From: Microcoleus sp. LEGE 07076
GTDB lineage: Bacteria; Cyanobacteriota; Cyanobacteriia; Cyanobacteriales; Microcoleaceae
Direction: 5' to 3'
Assembly: GCF_015207455.1 (NCBI RefSeq)
Contig: NZ_JADEWV010000059.1
Location: 1-32,372 of the forward strand
Length of the DNA: 32,372 bases
Shown: positions 4,939 through 32,277 of the stretch, piece by piece
Numbering within the stretch: the stretch's first letter is position 1
Layout of the letters: each line of letters begins with the position of its first letter
Made by a program: the position numbers and the translations under genes
Notes under the pieces: model-generated
The model's input: only the letters and a program-made list of their open reading frames with translations
Database searches by the model: none
Told to the model about the DNA's origin: nothing

Positions 4939-5523
4939 ATGCTTAAAAAATCTGGACTATTAGAGATAATTGCTGGTAAGAATCGCGGTTTGCTGGCGAC
5001 TCCAAACGACAAACAGGCGATTTTAAGTGCGATCGCCCAATTGGAAGATTACAACCCCACATCTCGCCCCGTCGAAGCCGCAGAGCTTTTAGAAGGTGAT
5101 TGGCGGTTATTGTACACCAGCAGCAGCGCCCTGTTGAATATTGACAGTTTTCCGCTGTTAAAATTAGGTCAAATCTATCAATCCATCCGCGTCAAAGAAT
5201 CAAAAATTTATAACATTGCCGAAGTTTACGGATTGCCTTATTTGGAAGGGATTGTCAGCGTAGCTGCGAGATTTGAAGCAACTTCGGAACGGCGAGTGCA
5301 GGTGAAATTTGAGCGATCGATCTTGGGTTTAAGCAGGTTGATTGGCTATGAATCTCCGGCAAAATATATCAATGAGATTGAGTCGGGGAAAAAGTTTGCT
5401 GCTGTAGATTTCAAGCTGGATGCGCGGGAACAGCAGGGATGGCTGGATATTACTTATTTGGATGGCGATTTGCGGATCGGGCGCGGCAATGAAGGAAGTG
5501 TTTTTGTGTTGACAAAACAGTGA
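4939..5523 (+). CDS. PAP/fibrillin family protein
   Basis: This 194-residue protein has the plastid-lipid-associated (PAP/fibrillin) layout. An N-terminal helical part (LLEIIAGKNRGLLATPNDKQ) is followed by the hallmark LEGDWRLLYTSS, then a beta-barrel region with LGQIYQSI and ending in DITYLDGDLRIGRGNEGSVF. In cyanobacteria and plastids such lipocalin-like proteins associate with thylakoids or lipid globules and are linked to photoprotection; the ligand is usually unknown. No signal peptide is present, so a peripheral membrane or stromal-side location is likely. A heptamer array sits right in front of the start codon, so the promoter must lie upstream of, or within, repeat DNA. Confidence 0.88.
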   Translation: MLKKSGLLEIIAGKNRGLLATPNDKQAILSAIAQLEDYNPTSRPVEAAELLEGDWRLLYTSSSALLNIDSFPLLKLGQIYQSIRVKESKIYNIAEVYGLPYLEGIVSVAARFEATSERRVQVKFERSILGLSRLIGYESPAKYINEIESGKKFAAVDFKLDAREQQGWLDITYLDGDLRIGRGNEGSVFVLTKQ

Positions 5524-5606
5524 TTTTGTGATGCTTGATTGAGTTCGATATATTTTTTGCTTGAAAGTTGCGATCAATCTAAAATGATACCGGGAGGGAT
5601 ACAATC

Positions 5607-6047
5607 ATGACATCAACTATTAAAGAACCAATGGGCAAAATTACCACAACACTGACGATCGCGAATCGCCTCGACCAAGGTAAGGCAGAAGATAATCTAA
5701 TTCCTGCCGATCGAGTACGTTCTATTACCATAAAAAATGTGCTGGTAGATACTGGGGCGACTACTTTATGCTTGCCGCAGGATGCGATCGCCCAACTCGG
5801 TTTAAAACTCCTGAAAACCGTGCCTGTAGCAACGGTAACAGGCATCGGTACAGCACGCATTTTTGAAGATGCAAAAATTTCATTAATGGGAAGAGACGCG
5901 ACTTTTGAGTGCATAGAACTGCCCGCAGGAGCCGATCCGTTATTGGGCGTCATCCCGTTAGAAGCATTAGGAATTGAATTGGATTTGCAGAAACAAACAC
6001 TCGTGCTTTTGCCGCTGAGTCCGACGGCTAGTTATTTAAGAATTTGA
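5607..6047 (+). CDS. Retropepsin-like aspartic protease (clan AA)
   Basis: The 146-residue protein contains one copy of the aspartic protease signature: NVLVDTGATTLCLP, with the presumed catalytic Asp at residue 48. Later come the GIGTARIFEDAKISLMGR strand region and the hydrophobic LLGVIPLEALGIELD segment, which corresponds to the second conserved retropepsin element. A single DTG per chain means it should work as a homodimer. Related small bacterial proteins are annotated as clan AA aspartic proteases, but their substrates are mostly unknown. GGGAGGGAT precedes the ATG at a normal distance. It has no signal peptide. It lies 83 bp after the PAP/fibrillin gene and may be cotranscribed with it. 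Confidence 0.85.
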   Translation: MTSTIKEPMGKITTTLTIANRLDQGKAEDNLIPADRVRSITIKNVLVDTGATTLCLPQDAIAQLGLKLLKTVPVATVTGIGTARIFEDAKISLMGRDATFECIELPAGADPLLGVIPLEALGIELDLQKQTLVLLPLSPTASYLRI

Positions 6048-6086
6048 ATTTAGCAGTTAGGAAATAACCTAAAATGCAACTTATTG

Positions 6087-6326
6087 TTACTCCGTCAGTT
6101 TTGTCTGTTCTTTGTTTTCTGCCGGCATTGACTTTCTGACAGCTAGCACTAACTCCGCTTCGGTACATCGATACAAATCCCGCATTCGGAATACTTGCCA
6201 AACTTCCATCTTTGGCAATGTTCGACCCTTTTCCCAGTTGCGAATTGAAGATTCAGCACATTCTAGTATATGTGCTACGTCTATAATTTTCAGCCCCGCA
6301 CGTTCTCTTAAGGCTCTCAGATCCAT
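6087..6326 (-). CDS. Small helix-turn-helix DNA-binding protein (XRE type)
   Basis: The 79-residue protein is almost entirely one HTH_3/XRE domain. LRALRERAGLKIIDVAHIL forms helices 1-2, and CAESSIRNWEKGRTLPKM forms the recognition helix and following turn. This is the standard five-helix fold of Cro/C1-type repressors. No sensor or multimerisation domain follows, only a short charged tail. It probably binds DNA near its own gene: two direct CGTTAAGT repeats lie about 30-50 bp upstream of the start. It is convergent with the protease gene. The target genes are unknown. Confidence 0.8.
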   Translation of the reverse strand: MDLRALRERAGLKIIDVAHILECAESSIRNWEKGRTLPKMEVWQVFRMRDLYRCTEAELVLAVRKSMPAENKEQTKLTE

Positions 6327-6354
6327 AGCTGACCGAACCTTTTCAGGGACAAAA

Positions 6355-6375
6355 CGTTAAGTTTTACCGTTAAGT
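6355..6375. promoter_or_regulatory. Candidate operator: direct repeat CGTTAAGT x2
   Basis: CGTTAAGT occurs at 6355-6362 and 6368-6375, with starts 13 bp apart. The pair lies upstream of the HTH gene on the minus strand and just before a possible plus-strand promoter, where an autoregulatory or divergent operator would be expected. Binding by the HTH protein is inference. Confidence 0.4.
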
Positions 6376-6376
6376 A

Positions 6377-6406
6377 TTGACGTTTGCGACCGATTTGATG
6401 TTTAAT
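6377..6406 (+). promoter_or_regulatory. Possible sigma-70-type promoter
   Basis: TTGACG at 6377-6382 and TTTAAT at 6401-6406 are 18 bp apart, reading toward the small pseudogene at 6490. It overlaps the end of the candidate HTH operator region. Consensus match only. Confidence 0.3.
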
Positions 6407-6489
6407 CATAGTAGTAGAGGCGTTAGTCGATTTCTGGCAAGAGACTTACTAACGCCCTTTCCTGTACTCCTTACGAATACCACACGATT

Positions 6490-6741
6490 ATGCCACAAAA
6501 CGGTTATCAACAGGGATTCTGTGCGAATCCTCGGGCGATCGCGTACCAAAAACGCCTTTACCCTTGGGCGATCGCCAAACTCATGCCAAATATGCAGCGC
6601 GCGATTGTGGGGCGATTTCGCAGTTGATCGGATGCTGACGGGCACTTGCTGTGTCTGCGTCAACTCATGCCCCAAGCAACGCTTGTCGTAGTCTTTGACT
6701 TGCAGCCAGACTTAGAAGTACCTACCGCGCCCGCAGAATAA
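6490..6741 (+). pseudogene. Small cyanobacterial protein interrupted by one TGA
   Basis: From ATG 6490 the frame reads MPQNGYQQGFCANPR, then RLYPWAIAKLMPNMQR and AIVGRFRS, and hits TGA at 6625-6627. It continues in the same frame as SDADGHLLCLRQLMPQ and ATLVVVFDLQPDLEV to TAA at 6739-6741, 83 codons plus stop. The pattern PWAIxxLxPNMQRxIVxRFRSRSDADGHLxxLRxLxP matches a small uncharacterised cyanobacterial protein type I recall. The stop falls where Arg (CGA) would stand, so a single C-to-T change explains it. Function is unknown. A sequencing error is the main alternative. Confidence 0.6.
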
Positions 6742-6746
6742 AGTAA

Positions 6747-6802
6747 GGTGCGTCAGATCCCAAATCCTCAACAATCAATTCAACAACTTCGTCTGACGCA
6801 CC
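6747..6802. repeat. Inverted repeat GGTGCGTCAGA
   Basis: GGTGCGTCAGA at 6747-6757 and its exact complement TCTGACGCACC at 6792-6802 flank a 34-bp A+T-rich middle. It looks like a small dispersed or MITE-like palindrome just after the small pseudogene. Confidence 0.75.
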
Positions 6803-6912
6803 CTACAAGTCGCTTTCAGCTTGATACTTAGCTTCAATTTGGTACTAATTACAGCAGTCGATAAATATCAACTTAAGTTAGGATAAAATTATCCTCAATT
6901 TGTTTTTAAATC

Positions 6913-7581
6913 ATGACTTCTACAACAGCAAAATTCATTGTGTCTCAAGTGGGTGAAATTCCCCAATGGCAAGCCGCGACATGGGAAGATTATGTAGCTG
7001 CTTGCGAAGATCCGTCTTTGGAAGAAGCCAGAATATTTTTTTATGAAGGATATCTTTGGATAGACATGGGTAATGAAGGGCCTCAGCACGCTAGATTTAA
7101 CAATCTCTTGACGCTGGTGTATTACGCCTGGTTTGTCAACAAAGGAGGACAAGCTTTCGATGATTTGGGTGGATGTGTAATTGAAAAGCCAAAGGTGGGA
7201 GGAGGTGCGCCCGATCGCATTTTATATATTGGCGGAGAATTCATCCAGTGGCAAAAAGGGGAACCGCGCCGAATCAATCTGAATCAATCTCGAATTCCTG
7301 ATTTAGTAGTAGAAACTTCCGATACTACTTTGGCCAGCGATTTAGATGGAAAGAAGCGCTTGTATGCTGCTTTTGGAATTCCTGAATATTGGGTGGTAGA
7401 TATTAAAGGCGAGAGAGTTTTGGCATTTCGATTGCAGGAAAATGGGCAGTATCAGGAATGCGAAATTTCCGGTGCGCTGGAGGGATTGCCAATTGCTTTG
7501 CTGTCGGAGACTTTGAAACTTTTGAATCAGGGAAATGGGACGGCGGCGATGTGGTTTGCTCAACAAATTGGGAATTTGTAG
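6913..7581 (+). CDS. Uma2 family endonuclease (DUF820)
   Basis: The 222-residue protein has the PD-(D/E)XK core of Uma2 proteins: GGGAPDRILY, then RIPDLVVETSD, a KKRLYAAFGIPEYWVVD segment and a C-terminal ALLSETLKLL helix. The predicted active-site residues are the Asp of PDLVVE, the Glu that follows and the Lys of KKRLY. Uma2 proteins are strongly expanded in filamentous cyanobacteria; nuclease activity is predicted from fold and the biological role is unclear. A 7-bp palindrome (AGGATAA/TTATCCT, 6880-6895) lies just before the gene. A second Uma2 gene at 21976-22700 is broken. Confidence 0.88.
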   Translation: MTSTTAKFIVSQVGEIPQWQAATWEDYVAACEDPSLEEARIFFYEGYLWIDMGNEGPQHARFNNLLTLVYYAWFVNKGGQAFDDLGGCVIEKPKVGGGAPDRILYIGGEFIQWQKGEPRRINLNQSRIPDLVVETSDTTLASDLDGKKRLYAAFGIPEYWVVDIKGERVLAFRLQENGQYQECEISGALEGLPIALLSETLKLLNQGNGTAAMWFAQQIGNL

Positions 7582-27167: not shown

Positions 27168-27581
27168 ATGAAAGTCTTTGTCTACGGCACTCTCAAACCG
27201 GGGGAGTGCAACTATCTGCGCTACTGCGAGGGAAAGGTTGTGGATGCTTGTCCGGCGATCGCCCGCGGTCAGCTTTTTGCGCTGCCGATCGGCTATCCTG
27301 CAATGGTGGCCGGAGATGGTAACGTCTGCGGTTTTCTCCTCTGTTTCGCAAATTCGGCTATTTTGGACGATTTAGACAGACTGGAAGACTATCATCCGCT
27401 GCGGGAACCGACGGAAAACGAATATCAGCGACAGGAAATCGAAATTTGCGATCGACACTTCAAACCTCTAGGCACGGCTTGGGCTTACTTCATGGTACCC
27501 GATCGCGTTCGTGCTCTAGGAGGCATCTGGCTGCCCGATGGGACGTGGGAAAATCGGTTTTTCGCCAAATCAAGTGGTTAA
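27168..27581 (+). CDS. Gamma-glutamylcyclotransferase-like protein
   Basis: The 137-residue protein opens MKVFVYGTLKPGECN, the family signature that binds the gamma-glutamyl group. The catalytic Glu is expected at residue 73 in LDRLEDYHPL. IARGQLFALP, GFLLCF and the closing AWAYFM strands complete the GGCT/AIG2-like beta-barrel. Such enzymes release 5-oxoproline from gamma-glutamyl amines or glutathione-type compounds in the cytoplasm; the actual substrate is not known here. It overlaps the convergent response-regulator gene by 4 bp at the stop codons, so no terminator fits between them. Confidence 0.9.
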   Translation: MKVFVYGTLKPGECNYLRYCEGKVVDACPAIARGQLFALPIGYPAMVAGDGNVCGFLLCFANSAILDDLDRLEDYHPLREPTENEYQRQEIEICDRHFKPLGTAWAYFMVPDRVRALGGIWLPDGTWENRFFAKSSG

Positions 27582-28315
27582 TGCCGATGAGCTGAGGAAA
27601 TTGCCATTGCCGCGGGCGAGGGCGGCTCGAACCTGTAACCGTAACCCCGAACCGTTTTAATCAACTGCGATCCTGTAGCATCAACTTCAATCATTTTCTT
27701 GCGAATCTGGCCGATATGTACGCTAACAACTTTCTCTTCTTCTGTGCTGTTGCAGTTCCAACCCCAGATTTTTTCGATTAGCTGTTGGCGACTCCAAGAT
27801 TGACCGGAATGACTTGCCAAAAAATACAAAATCTTAAATTCCAAGGCTGTTAACTTGATAATTTTGTCGTTGAGTGTTGCTTCTCGACGCGCTGAATCGA
27901 TCGCGAATCGATCGAATACAATACGTGATGGAGTAACACACCTCATCCGTCTCAACACAACTTCGATCCGCATTGCTAATTCCTGAAGACCAAATGGTTT
28001 GCAGATATAATCATCAGCACCTACAGACAGGACTTTAATTTTATCCGCTTCGTCTGTGCGGCTGCTTAGCATTACCACAAAAACATTAGTACGGCGCTGC
28101 ATTTCCTGGCAAAGATGATAGCCTGTAGTATCCGGCAAATTCCAATCTAGAACTACTAGCATTGGCTTAAATTCCTCAAACAATGCTAAAGCAGTCTCGC
28201 CATCTGCTGCCGAATCTACTTGATATTTCTGATTTAAAAAACGATGAACTAGATTGCGAATGGGTGGGTCATCATCCACCACGAGAATCTTGAGAGCAGT
28301 ATTAGTAGTCATCAC
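27578..28315 (-). CDS. OmpR/PhoB-type response regulator
   Basis: The 245-residue protein has a receiver domain (residues 8-122) with the acidic triad DDD at 14-16, phosphoacceptor Asp 57 in VVLDWNLPD, a Ser at 84-85 and Lys 106 in CKPF. A winged-helix DNA-binding domain follows (about 130-232), with LTALEFKILYFLA, WSRQQLIEKIWG, VVSVHIGQIRKK and TVRGYGYRFE. It should be phosphorylated by a histidine kinase, bind DNA as a dimer and control transcription. No kinase gene is adjacent. The rearranged anti-sigma-type ATPase lies 44 bp upstream on the same strand, most likely in one operon. An ATG one codon later is an equal start. Confidence 0.95.
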   Translation of the reverse strand: MMTTNTALKILVVDDDPPIRNLVHRFLNQKYQVDSAADGETALALFEEFKPMLVVLDWNLPDTTGYHLCQEMQRRTNVFVVMLSSRTDEADKIKVLSVGADDYICKPFGLQELAMRIEVVLRRMRCVTPSRIVFDRFAIDSARREATLNDKIIKLTALEFKILYFLASHSGQSWSRQQLIEKIWGWNCNSTEEEKVVSVHIGQIRKKMIEVDATGSQLIKTVRGYGYRFEPPSPAAMAISSAHRH

Positions 28316-28359: not shown

Positions 28360-28947
28360 TTAGTCAAGCATACATCCCAGCTCGCTCCAAATAACAGGCA
28401 ATTCTTCAAGCAACTTAGCTTGGATGTCAAAAGGCTCTCCCATATCCCAAATTTTGACTTCTAGACGTTCGTTAAATACGGTTATTTCAAGGTCGATCGG
28501 AGTTTGAAAATGCAGATTTTTGTGTGCGTGGCGAACAGCATTTGTAAATCCTTCTATCGTAGCAAGTTTGCACTGCTGCAAAACTGCTTCGGGAATGGGT
28601 AGATCCTCTAACTGCTCGACCCACCATAAAACTTGTGCAACACTATTGAGGTCAGTGTTTAGTTGAAGGTAAATTATTTTAGTTGGCTGATTGTAAATTC
28701 GATGAAAATGGCGATCTTGTTCTTTTTTAAATCCAAAATTCAAGCTGTTAAAAAAAATAACTATCCCCTGCAAATAACCAGATTGATTCGTCTGCTGGGG
28801 TGGTATTGTGTCGGGCTGAAAATTTTTCACAATTAACAGACAGTTGCGATTGTCAGAAGTGCGTTTATAGCTGAGATTGTCGGCAATTTTGTTAATAAGT
28901 TTTATGCCGATTCCACGGGAGGGAATTGCCTTGATATTATTGCTCAT
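28360..28947 (-). CDS. Anti-sigma-type ATPase (RsbW-like HATPase) in circularly permuted order
   Basis: The 195-residue protein carries the parts of a cyanobacterial RsbW-type HATPase in swapped order. Residues 7-45 read IPSRGIGIKLINKIADNLSY, then RTSDNRNCLLIVKN, normally the C-terminal end with the G2 ATP-lid motif. A 45-residue linker follows. Residues 90-190 then give the usual N-terminal half: KIIYLQLNTDLNSVAQVLWW, the N box IEGFTNAVRHAH (Mg/ATP-binding Glu and Asn) and the G1 box WDMGEPFD. The chain stops just after, where G2 would normally follow. No missing half lies up- or downstream. All ATP-site motifs are present, so a working permuted domain is possible. The ATG at 28947 is chosen for its AAGGA site; another start is at 28968. 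Confidence 0.75.
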   Translation of the reverse strand: MSNNIKAIPSRGIGIKLINKIADNLSYKRTSDNRNCLLIVKNFQPDTIPPQQTNQSGYLQGIVIFFNSLNFGFKKEQDRHFHRIYNQPTKIIYLQLNTDLNSVAQVLWWVEQLEDLPIPEAVLQQCKLATIEGFTNAVRHAHKNLHFQTPIDLEITVFNERLEVKIWDMGEPFDIQAKLLEELPVIWSELGCMLD

Positions 28948-29097
28948 GTTGCTATCCTTTTTCATCATTTAATAGGTGATTTCTAGAGACACAAGAGAGT
29001 GGCATTTTGAAGGATTAATTTTGGATGATTTATGCCTGACTTTTCTCCTATGCCGTGCAGTTGTTGTCAGGATCATTTTCTCTTGGTTGCTGGGATC

Positions 29098-29127: not shown

Positions 29128-29169
29128 GATCTAAAATTGAGATTGACAAATAAAAAAGTAAATTATCTA

Positions 29170-31608
29170 ATGACGACCCTCAAAGCCTCTGACGAGGGAT
29201 TAGTAAAAATTAGGCAAGCTAGAAGAGAAAGGGGATCGACGATAGAAGACCCCAGATGGCTAGTAGAAGCTAGTCAAACATTAGAGCCCGATCGCGCTTG
29301 GACAGAGGCAGGGCCCTATGCCGATGGCCTATCGCTGCCAACTTGGAGGCGTTTTTTAGCAGGAAGAGAACCAATTAAAGCCCATGCTTTCAAGGCTTTC
29401 TGCACGGTTTTGCAGTTGGATTGGGAAGAAATTGTCGATCGTCCTCCTTTAGTCTCCCCTTACCAAGGGGGGGTTGGGGGGGTTAGAAATTTTTGCCAAC
29501 AGCCTATTGATGCGGTAGTGGAAGAGATCCGGCAAAAATGCCACAGCAAAATCCAACAGCTTTACAGCAAAATGCAACTGTTGGATATTGCACAGCCCGT
29601 TGATGTCAGCAACCTCTACGTTGAAGTCAACATTTTGGAGGAAATTACCAGTTGGCAGCCGGGAGAAATTAGCGATTTATTGAGAGACTTCAACCCAGAT
29701 GCGGATAACTTTAATCGCTTGGGATTGGGTAAAGTACGCCAGAAACGAGTCCCTGGATTGGATGCGGTGAAATCTCACTCTAAACTGATGGTACTCGGCA
29801 AACCTGGTTCCGGTAAAACTACTTTTTTGAAACACATCGCCATTCAGTGCGATCGGGCAAAATTTGAATCAAACAAAATACCGATTTTTATCCCTCTCAA
29901 AACCTTTGCTGAAATCGCTAATCTTGACTTATTAGAATATATCAGCGACGAATTTGCCAGTTGCGGAGTAGAAGGGCGATCGCAAACTGAATTCGCACTC
30001 AGTCAAGGCAGAGGTTTGATTTTATTAGACGGCTTAGATGAAGTGCCAGAATCAGATAGCGATGCAGTCGTCAGACAGATTCGTCATTTTGCCGGAAAGT
30101 ATTACAACAATCAGTTTATTATTACCTGTAGAATTGCCGCTGCTAAGTACAGATTTCACGACGCAGCCTTTACCTGTGTTGAGGTAGCCGATTTTAATAA
30201 TAAGCAAATCGCTGCCTTTGCTGGCAATTGGTTTGTGGCTTTTTCCCAGAATATGGAGGCAGGGAAAGCTTTAGCATCTCAATTTATAGAGCAGCTAAAA
30301 ATGAATAAAAATCAGCAAATCCGAGAACTGGCAGTAACGCCTATCTTGTTAAATTTGACTTGTTTAGTATTCCAAGCAAAAGCGGATTTTCCATCCAACA
30401 GAGCCAAGTTGTATGAGGAAGGAATGGAAATAATGCTCATAAAATGGGATGAAACCAGAGGCATTAAACGGGATGAAGTTTATCGCGATTTGAATTTGTG
30501 CCGCAAGAAACATTTACTTGCTTTTGTAGCAGTTATTACTTTTGAACGGGGCGATTATTTTTTTGAAAAAAACACAGTTCAGCAATTGATTGCCGAATAT
30601 CTAGCTAATTTGCCCGATGCCACAACTAACCCCGTTCAGTTGGAGATGGGCAGTGAGGTTGTGCTGAAGGCGATCGAAGCACAACATGGCTTATTAGTGG
30701 AAAGGGCAAGAGGGATTTATTCATTTTCTCATCTAACATTTCAAGAGTATTTTACTGCTACAGAAATAGTTAACAATTCTGCTCCACAAGCTTTGGAAAA
30801 ACTGGTCAGCCACCTGACCGAGAAGCGTTGGCGAGAAGTCTTGTTGTTAGCAGTTGGGATGTTGCAAAAAGCTGATGACTTGTTGCTGTCAATTAAGCAG
30901 CAAGTTGATGGACTGGTCGCTGACAATGAGCAGTTGCAGCAGTTCCTACTGTGGATCAACAAAAAATCCCTTTCTGTTGATTGTGCCTACAAACCTGCGG
31001 CAGTTAGAGCATTTTACTTTACCCTTGAATATCCCCTCCTTGACTGTGGCTTTGCCCTTTCTCTTGACCCTTGTCTAAAAAAAGTTGTGGGACAAGCTCT
31101 GGAACAGGTTCTTAACCTTGCACTTGAAGGTGCTCTTGACCTTGCCCTGAATACCGTCCTTAAGGATGCGCTTGAGCCTACTCTTGGTTACATCAGGCTT
31201 ACCCTTGAACGTACCCTCGTCCCTAACCTTGACCTTGTTCTTGACTGCGACCTTGTACCTGCCCTTAAGCCTGAACAAAGGCAAGGGATACAAGAACTTC
31301 TGGAACAACTGCCCGATCCAAAAAGTGACAAAGATATCTTTGCAAAATGGTGGCAAGATAACGGTCAGGCTTGGGATAAGCGATTAAGACAAATGATGAT
31401 TTTGTATCGCGATCTGGGTCGCGTTTGGCAATTTAGCGAACAACAGAAGTCATTGCTGAAGAATTATTACGATGCTAATAAATTGCTGGTAAAGTGCCTT
31501 AATAGCGGTTGTAATGTATCTCCTGCTGTGCGGCAGGAAATTGAGGAGACCTTGCTGTTGCCGATCGCCCATATCCAAAAAACCGGTGACAAGTGCGGTC
31601 GCGTTTAA
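29170..31608 (+). CDS. NACHT-domain STAND NTPase, NLR-like
   Basis: The 812-residue protein starts with a helical, HTH-like region (residues 1-90: GLVKIRQARRERG, LPTWRRFLAGREPIKA, LQLDWEEIVD). The NACHT NTPase follows with Walker A GKPGSGKT (210-217), Walker B LILLDGLDE (283-291), the sensor-like FIITCR and FSHLTFQEYF near 530. A Leu-rich repetitive stretch comes next (about 630-700, units like LALEGALDLAL), then a C-terminal helical domain (WQFSEQQKSLLKNYYDANK, SPAVRQEIEETLLLP) like that of bacterial NACHT conflict-system proteins. Such NLR relatives are known anti-phage sensors. Residues 92-106 derive from an inserted repeat. The ATG at 29170 is preferred over an upstream TTG. No separate effector gene is seen next to it. 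Confidence 0.88.
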   Translation: MTTLKASDEGLVKIRQARRERGSTIEDPRWLVEASQTLEPDRAWTEAGPYADGLSLPTWRRFLAGREPIKAHAFKAFCTVLQLDWEEIVDRPPLVSPYQGGVGGVRNFCQQPIDAVVEEIRQKCHSKIQQLYSKMQLLDIAQPVDVSNLYVEVNILEEITSWQPGEISDLLRDFNPDADNFNRLGLGKVRQKRVPGLDAVKSHSKLMVLGKPGSGKTTFLKHIAIQCDRAKFESNKIPIFIPLKTFAEIANLDLLEYISDEFASCGVEGRSQTEFALSQGRGLILLDGLDEVPESDSDAVVRQIRHFAGKYYNNQFIITCRIAAAKYRFHDAAFTCVEVADFNNKQIAAFAGNWFVAFSQNMEAGKALASQFIEQLKMNKNQQIRELAVTPILLNLTCLVFQAKADFPSNRAKLYEEGMEIMLIKWDETRGIKRDEVYRDLNLCRKKHLLAFVAVITFERGDYFFEKNTVQQLIAEYLANLPDATTNPVQLEMGSEVVLKAIEAQHGLLVERARGIYSFSHLTFQEYFTATEIVNNSAPQALEKLVSHLTEKRWREVLLLAVGMLQKADDLLLSIKQQVDGLVADNEQLQQFLLWINKKSLSVDCAYKPAAVRAFYFTLEYPLLDCGFALSLDPCLKKVVGQALEQVLNLALEGALDLALNTVLKDALEPTLGYIRLTLERTLVPNLDLVLDCDLVPALKPEQRQGIQELLEQLPDPKSDKDIFAKWWQDNGQAWDKRLRQMMILYRDLGRVWQFSEQQKSLLKNYYDANKLLVKCLNSGCNVSPAVRQEIEETLLLPIAHIQKTGDKCGRV

Positions 31609-31696: not shown

Positions 31697-31978
31697 ATGA
31701 ACATTACTCTAAAACCTGACCATAATAAATTTATTGAAGCGCAAGTCAAAAGTGGCAAATATTCTTCGGTGGATGAGGTAATTGCTGCGGCGTTGGAACT
31801 ACTCGCAGACAGAAGCGATCGGCAACAGAGCGATCGTTATCAAGAATGGGTGGATGAAACTCGTCCAAAAGTAGCAGCAGGACTAGCTCAACTTGAAGGC
31901 GGCGAAGGAATTGATGGGGAGATAGTTATAGCTAGATTGCGGGAAAAATTTCGCAAAATGCGGGAAAATCAACAATGA
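31697..31978 (+). CDS. ParD-like antitoxin (second module)
   Basis: The 93-residue protein opens MNITLKPDHNKFIEAQVKSG with KYSSVDEVIAAALELL, the same ribbon-helix-helix type as the antitoxin at 7767. Its C-terminal toxin-binding part (GIDGEIVIARLREKFRKMRE) also matches the GELVFARIQEKI end of the other. It should bind its own promoter as a dimer. Its stop overlaps the start of the toxin frame as ATGA. Because that toxin carries a stop codon, this antitoxin may be an orphan that survives as a DNA-binding protein or can protect against related toxins. Confidence 0.9.
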   Translation: MNITLKPDHNKFIEAQVKSGKYSSVDEVIAAALELLADRSDRQQSDRYQEWVDETRPKVAAGLAQLEGGEGIDGEIVIARLREKFRKMRENQQ

Positions 31979-32277
31979 GCCGCTACATTATTTCCCCTGA
32001 AGCCAGTCGCGATCTCAATGAAATTACCGATTACTTTGCAACTAAAAATATAGATGCAGGTGAACAATTTGTTGAAGACTTTGATAAAAAGTGTCGTAAT
32101 TTAGTTAAGTTCCCCAATATAGGGCTCAGTTACGAGTAACTAGCTCCTTCTGTGCGGGGAATTCCTATCAGAGGTTACATAATTCTTTATCGGGCGCTGG
32201 ACAACTTAATTGAAATTGTTCGGATCGTGAGGGGAGAACGGGATTTACCTTCTCTATTTTCTGATGATCGGGAGTGA
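31975..32277 (+). pseudogene. RelE/ParE toxin with an internal stop codon
   Basis: The frame starts at ATG 31975 and reads MSRYIISPEASRDLNEITDY, then FVEDFDKKCRNLVKFPNIGLSYE, and meets TAA at 32137-32139 (codon 55). It continues without a frame change as LAPSVRGIPIRGYIILYR and IEIVRIVRGERDLPSLF to TGA at 32275-32277, 100 sense-equivalent codons plus stop. This matches the length and layout of the intact toxin at 8018, whose FPNMGKRYERLSPNLRGFIV aligns across the stop. A CAA-to-TAA or GAA-to-TAA change explains it. The stop removes the strands and Arg residues needed for toxicity, so the module is inactivated. Confidence 0.85.

Follow-up and report, generated by a model that had tools for sequence, protein, structure and literature searches.

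RsbW-type ATPase genes with swapped halves in Microcoleus and its relatives: a probable natural circular permutation

The window analysed here is a stretch of 32,372 nucleotides from Microcoleus sp. LEGE 07076. Its minus strand carries an open reading frame (28360-28968; 202 residues from the first ATG) for an RsbW/SpoIIAB-type HATPase in which the G2 half (B) stands ahead of the half containing the N box and G1 (A). Met8 (28947, giving a gene at 28360..28947) is the likelier start, as an earlier note on this DNA had proposed, because an AAGGA directly precedes its codon; an AAGGA- or GAGGA-like site stands 5′ of the equivalent codon in 11 of 12 genes inspected from the same family (family 1; upstream DNA of the twelfth is incomplete), and many ORFs of a second family start at this position. 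The B half (residues 17-50; 28819..28920, minus strand) runs from SRGIGIKLI to NCLLIVKNF, comprises the G2 box SRGIGIK with the last helix and two strands of the HATPase fold, and scores 73 bits against a half-HMM that was built with the permuted family included. A linker of about residues 51-96 (28681..28818, minus) leads to the A half (residues 97-186; 28411..28680, minus), which supplies the first strand, the N-box helices and G1; the N box itself, EGFTNAVRHAH, occupies residues 139-149 (28522..28554, minus) and G1, DMGEPFD, residues 175-181 (28426..28446, minus). The C-terminal tail (residues 187-202; 28363..28410, minus) corresponds to the first part of a cut ATP lid. The motifs are thus all present in the reversed block order that had been described: G2 half, linker, N box, G1. 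Besides the window gene, 54 distinct B-A sequences have this order rather than the canonical N-G1-G2, and one further sequence reads B-A-B. The ATPase gene is followed after 44 bp, on its own strand, by a gene for an OmpR/RpaB-like response regulator (27578..28315, minus). The divergent neighbour encodes a NACHT/NCH2 protein (29137..31608, plus) and also lies beside several family-1 genes elsewhere, although we claim no functional link. Two short overlapping ORFs at 31697-32139 are, we presume from their motifs, a ParD/ParE-type toxin-antitoxin pair.

HATPase_c_2 (PF13581) was the only family returned by a Pfam scan of the window protein (E 2.5e-17), with two matching stretches, the better of which pairs residues 105-186 with positions 3-85 of the 127 in the profile; the score of 63.5 bits is above the curated cut-off of 27.4. 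All 55 rows of the swapped-order alignment match PF13581 at E ≤0.01, and its N, G1 and G2 boxes are all present in the permuted family. Scores against the curated RsbW equivalogs fall below their cut-offs (34.3 of 155.05 bits for TIGR01924 and 38.9 of 145 for NF003144), as do those of the two normal-order relatives scanned (L003 and L004). A profile built from the 55 swapped-order rows (54 B-A and one B-A-B) matched one distinct PDB sequence, that of Bacillus subtilis RsbW (E 3.2e-12), and did so in swapped blocks: profile positions 129-185 fall on RsbW 38-93 and positions 8-32 on RsbW 100-124, this second (B-half) block being weak when taken alone (10.9 bits, i-Evalue 2.1). The block positions imply that the protein begins inside the ATP lid and ends on the other side of the same lid, and they support a cut between RsbW residues about 93 and 100, in the loop where the break had been placed from the motifs. 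An AlphaFold (AF2) model with a pTM of 0.70 gives residues 21-50 and 101-180 pLDDT values of about 90 or more, and builds the B half from a helix (20-28) and two strands (31-36 and 42-49). Its pLDDT is below 50 for the first G2 residues (to 17) and at 192-202 in the tail, and is low over 55-91 in the linker, where one helix (64-77) is predicted. The best solved-structure matches obtained with sequential aligners are RsbW (6m36/6m37) and SpoIIAB (1th8). Packing of B on A as one HATPase fold is therefore a supported prediction on the grounds of pLDDT, pTM and homology. Alternatively, A of one chain might pair with B of another in an obligate domain-swapped dimer, the permutation mainly altering the dimer. 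SpoIIAB and RsbW are dimers and the linker is long and flexible, but its 45 residues look sufficient for packing within a chain, and the pTM quoted above was reached for a monomer; we consider such a dimer very unlikely. Half order, lid position, predicted fold of the halves and conservation all agree with the identification of a permuted RsbW-type ATPase.

Residues E139, D175, G177 and G21 are present in 55/55 aligned rows and N143 and G19 in 54/55, the sole exception at both positions being one tandem copy in M. vaginatus HSN003. By homology to SpoIIAB, we take E139 and N143 to serve in catalysis and Mg binding. Across families, constraint on both halves is stronger than on the linker: for 12 family-1 and 10 family-2 sequences, respectively, mean dN/mean dS is 0.28 and 0.15 for B, 0.30 and 0.30 for A, 0.72 and 0.56 for the linker, and 0.90 and 0.75 for the tail (a ratio of means by NG86; pairs whose dS was undefined or at least 1.5 were dropped, which left 30 to 66 for each segment). 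The closest pair taken alone (the window gene and L008) has few changes and gives dN/dS values near 0.66 (B), 0.39 (A) and 0.58 (linker); the seven nonsynonymous and three synonymous changes in B yield a ratio no lower than that of the linker. A protein that no longer hydrolyses ATP, and acts as a binding or decoy module, would be one outcome of the permutation. Lid integrity matters in related kinases, the lid is cut here, and one of the M. vaginatus HSN003 copies has lost both N143 and G19. Retention of E139 in every row and of N143 in all but one, together with the constraint on both halves across families, speaks against such a loss, which we regard as rather improbable.

Swapped-order genes are widespread in the genus. 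The genome of origin has a second one on another contig (C63; 216 aa, 47% identity to the window protein), and normal-order relatives on three more (C300, C146 and C91). Among 39 genomes searched, own included, 15 others of the same genus have end-to-end colinear homologues with the same half order at 55-87% identity, and a search of 388 genomes of the order found full-length swapped-order genes, falling into two families, in 27/29 same-genus genomes, own included; the window ORF is for these reasons not a chance one. For G003 (74% complete) and G006 of the genus there was no swapped match among the matches listed. Swapped-order genes were found in eight other genomes of the 388 (G042, G090, G108, G077, G249, G327, G273 and G358) and a B-A-B gene in G116. 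In a phylum-wide sample of 386 genomes, overlapping the order set, swapped matches (E ≤1e-38) came from seven genomes of the genus and from G077 only; at most eight candidates per genome were scored in both of these searches. Bacteria outside the phylum were reached only through a contig scan, in which the best 80 of 497 related stretches were considered, and permuted forms may occur there. Spread by phages or plasmids was considered and rejected: the 61 pattern stretches in viral contigs included no relatives, phages gave no match, and the one plasmid record found matches query residues 99-186 only. The earlier note had raised the prospect that close relatives would have the normal order at this locus, or that the assembly is locally in error. 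The relatives keep the swapped order, and the gene recurs in many separate assemblies, including two single-contig genomes (G019 and G021); the complete genome record of M. vaginatus HSN003 is also among the carriers. Given this recurrence and the constraint on the halves, and with nothing beyond the odd half order in its favour, we see practically no chance that the gene is an artefact in the form of a pseudogene remnant, a misassembly or a chance ORF.

The response regulator gene invites the idea that the ATPase works in cis with the protein encoded just behind it. A homologue of this regulator lies behind the ATPase gene, on the same strand, in 13/17 family-1 loci examined, and in the window the gap is the 44 bp given above. 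The regulator is full-length and in one piece in the window and in 5/13 of these loci, but is frameshifted, fragmentary or interrupted in the other 8/13, while the ATPase ORF is open in 17/17; part of the frameshifts may be assembly errors in MAGs. There is also no such neighbour in the family-2 loci compared; in the genome of origin, the family-2 gene is flanked by a pentapeptide-repeat gene on one side and a DUF3593 gene on the other. A role in cis with the regulator is on balance quite unlikely, and its decay disfavours it as an obligate partner. In two other lineages, genes for PAS/GAF-type hybrid histidine kinases are convergent with permuted genes (L145, 5867-10678; L150, 5716-7662). Possible partners are encoded in the genome of origin, which has 11 STAS (PF01740) and eight SpoIIE-phosphatase (PF07228) places. 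The contigs of its normal RsbW-type genes include STAS and phosphatase matches (C146), STAS (C300) or phosphatase (C91), whereas the contigs of the permuted genes, C28 (32 kb) and C63 (27 kb), have no PF01740 or PF07228 match. Thus neither permuted gene has the STAS and phosphatase genes of a partner-switching module alongside, which leads us to view the permuted proteins as kinases or sequestering factors for partners encoded elsewhere.

We think it probable that the window protein represents a natural circular permutation of the RsbW/SpoIIAB serine-kinase fold which arose by duplication and truncation, and that the protein retains an ATP- and partner-related function. B would fold back on A to form one ATP site, with the linker bridging the old N and C ends and the ATP lid left as two free tails. 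Most likely the protein still binds ATP, acts by phosphorylating or sequestering a partner (a STAS protein or another) whose gene lies elsewhere in the genome, and, its lid being open, exchanges nucleotide faster. We infer an ATP-dependent partner-switching kinase with its lid cut into two free ends. In Nostoc, PMC8256260 and PMC6495340 propose that the RsbW-type HmpW phosphorylates the STAS output protein HmpV, whose target is unknown, and for this reason a sigma factor should not be assumed as the target of the permuted proteins.

The route to the swapped order is best approached through related genes. Half-HMMs run on the ORFs of 160 loci sorted these into 55 distinct B-A, 47 A-B and one B-A-B sequence, the last (L093, identical to L149) from an Oscillatoria sp. 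SIO1A7 MAG (G116), the only MAG with this form. Its protein has a linker of similar pattern, followed after A by a normal lid and C end, and its gene is convergent with an AMP-binding menE-like gene 1 bp away (the men names are tentative, being based on Pfam and neighbouring genes). This menE-like gene is followed by other genes homologous to those that come after menE in G108. In G042, G090 and G108 (a record that also appears as L080), the B-A gene converges on the orthologous menE-like gene across a gap of 38 to 79 bp and has a 4HBT thioesterase gene on its other side. In G155, a convergent normal A-B gene overlaps the orthologous menE-like gene by 4 bp and has a 4HBT gene upstream. In G116 the 4HBT match shares the contig with the B-A-B gene but lies some 31 kb from it, so that only the menE side is common to the three forms. 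Searched against 22 genomes, the menE-like query gave one match per genome at E ≤1e-60 in 21 of them, and some of these matches, including those in G116 and G197, are partial. That the position is shared is informative because, in 18 regions fetched behind menE, a 4HBT homologue was found in 16 and an RsbW-type gene in G155 only.

Two kinds of vestige complement these three forms. When read past the stop, the tails that follow A in L062 (G108) and L064 (G090) align to the G155 protein over its lid and B half, with 1 and 0 of 2000 shuffles scoring as well (9 and 6 of 2000 once the first lid residues are removed), whereas the tail of L063 (G042) fails to reach significance, with 285 of 2000. Against the G116 protein, 60, 22 and 1579 of 2000 shuffles were as good for L062, L064 and L063. 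This test was post hoc, L062 and L064 having been chosen after an earlier match; among 14 tails tested for a decayed B, L063 aside, the 11 others scored like shuffles. In family 2 and in the window gene, too, the C-terminal tail scored like shuffles and was rejected as a decayed B half. L062 and L064 are near relatives and therefore represent one tail-decay event at most. Judged by these alignments, the tail in two of the three genomes G042, G090 and G108 resembles a decayed second B. The other vestige is in Hormoscilla, where two normal A-B genes (L108 and L109) have a B-like stretch just ahead of A, scoring 10.7 and 15.6 bits compared with a best of 3.7 in 1000 shuffles, for stretches that were picked by eye. 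A blind scan of the DNA upstream of 62 normal genes gave 7.8 and 12.5 bits for the same two genes, with 1860 shuffled frames at or below 4.1. L139 (55.9) ranked above them and L180 (4.8) below, slightly over the shuffles. L139 consists of two tandem normal-order RsbW-type genes (5734-6402 and 6511-7032) about 108 bp apart, and could illustrate, in a living genome, the sort of duplication from which a permutation might begin. L180 (G281:C8, minus strand, up to 2189) has a normal A-B domain inside a 729-aa ORF whose flanks look, by eye, like a cellulose-synthase-type glycosyltransferase.

A scan of 112 flanks, each of at most 1200 bases, around 56 distinct genes (55 B-A and the one B-A-B) revealed nearly no leftover halves beside permuted genes: setting aside the L077 tandem pair, B gave a single 13.4-bit fragment (L049; shuffles ≤6.9) and A at most 4.8 bits (shuffles ≤3.9). 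The L049 fragment (G008, downstream of 2097) resembles the end of B with linker and is perhaps a decayed second copy. L077, in M. vaginatus HSN003, comprises tandem permuted copies at 5052-5729 and 5935-6564 (L154), the second with G19 changed to K and N143 to H. The earlier observation that no leftover half lies on either side therefore holds for the window and for nearly all permuted relatives, but not for the B-A-B and vestigial forms in other genomes; the argument then drawn from it, that missing leftovers speak against a partial tandem duplication, is outweighed by the B-A-B gene and the decayed halves in relatives. In the pathway we propose, an A-B gene would duplicate to give B-A-B, which could lose its last B to give B-A, or keep it while the first B decays, as in the Hormoscilla form. 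Duplication followed by truncation is the route that fits these sequences best. In a structure search with a model of the B-A-B protein, the SpoIIAB/RsbW rows end at or before model residue 190, short of B2 (195-228), which is a hint, though no proof, that B1 rather than B2 takes the ATP site.

The backbone of a concatenated tree of both halves (99 rows and 123 columns, after removal of 20 near-copies from 62 normal, 56 permuted and one B-A-B sequence) is weak. Most permuted rows, Hormoscilla and the normal gene L173 fall outside both the NI clade and the main NII clade of normal rows, with the permuted L150 and the B-A-B sequence (L093) placed loosely beside NI. L006, a distant long-branch normal relative from the genome of origin, was left out of the B-half and concatenated trees, and the contig-end-clipped L035, which has an A half only, was dropped. 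No branch separates the permuted rows from the rest in any of 200 bootstrap trees, and the best tree requires three changes, yet one permuted clade is not rejected (p-AU 0.296, or 0.379 with B-A-B included). On this combination, several permutation events or transfer between lineages are possible. Separate trees of A and B have too few columns, and with just 34 for B the placements of B halves are not firm. These trees bear on an alternative in which the permuted gene is a chimera, with B from an NII-like (GLKLM type) paralogue and A from an NI-like (FDLEAK type) one, fused by a deletion between neighbours. Permuted B halves do stand apart from NI rows in the B tree, the FDLEAK motif after G1 is common in NI rows, and, by path, B1 of L093 is nearest to NII rows and B2 to an NI row. 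By identity, though, that same B2 is nearest to an NII row (L133, 62%), most permuted rows belong with neither clade in the concatenated tree, and L173, a normal gene adjoining that same menE-like gene of the three-form comparison, itself pairs FDLEAK with a GIMLM-type B. We judge the chimera unlikely and retain duplication and truncation as the preferred route.

The half order appears to be new while the protein kind, an RsbW-type HATPase, is known, and the intermediate-like relatives make the case unusual. Natural permutation is usually inferred from end products; here normal, doubled and swapped genes can be compared, together with decayed halves. The GHKL fold is used by sensor kinases, gyrase, Hsp90, MutL and anti-sigma factors, and is unrelated to the P-loop fold of the GTPase CpgA/YloQ. 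The present genes indicate that the GHKL ATPase fold tolerates a cut in the ATP lid under natural selection, and the permuted family offers a ready test of the role of the lid in RsbW-type partner switching. A bolder and less probable reading is that this is the first natural Bergerat/GHKL permutant, with its route visible in living genomes, that the cut lid confers a nucleotide-exchange behaviour of its own, and that B-A-B acts as a switch, its two G2 halves competing for a single ATP site.

Among known systems, RsbW/SpoIIAB (PF13581) has the same N, G1 and G2 boxes and, by prediction, the same fold elements as the permuted protein, which differs in having its halves swapped, its ATP lid cut and its former ends joined by a 45-residue linker. 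HmpW of Nostoc punctiforme and other partner-switching kinases of cyanobacteria (PMC8256260, PMC6495340) presumably belong to the same broad RsbW-type group. The three normal relatives in the genome of origin share contigs with STAS and/or phosphatase matches, but the two permuted genes do so with neither. The likeness to LvrC of Leptospira (9qih, a response regulator according to the entry title) is at the level of the common fold. We did not find a natural permutant of this fold in our searches of open-licence PMC papers, PMC3710099, PMC3517971, PMC12918730 and PMC5468089 included. A circularly permuted GTPase, CpgA/YloQ, is named in PMC3517971, and is likewise a permuted NTPase domain in a living protein. 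In contrast to CpgA/YloQ, the present case is a Bergerat/GHKL-type ATPase with intermediate-looking relatives.
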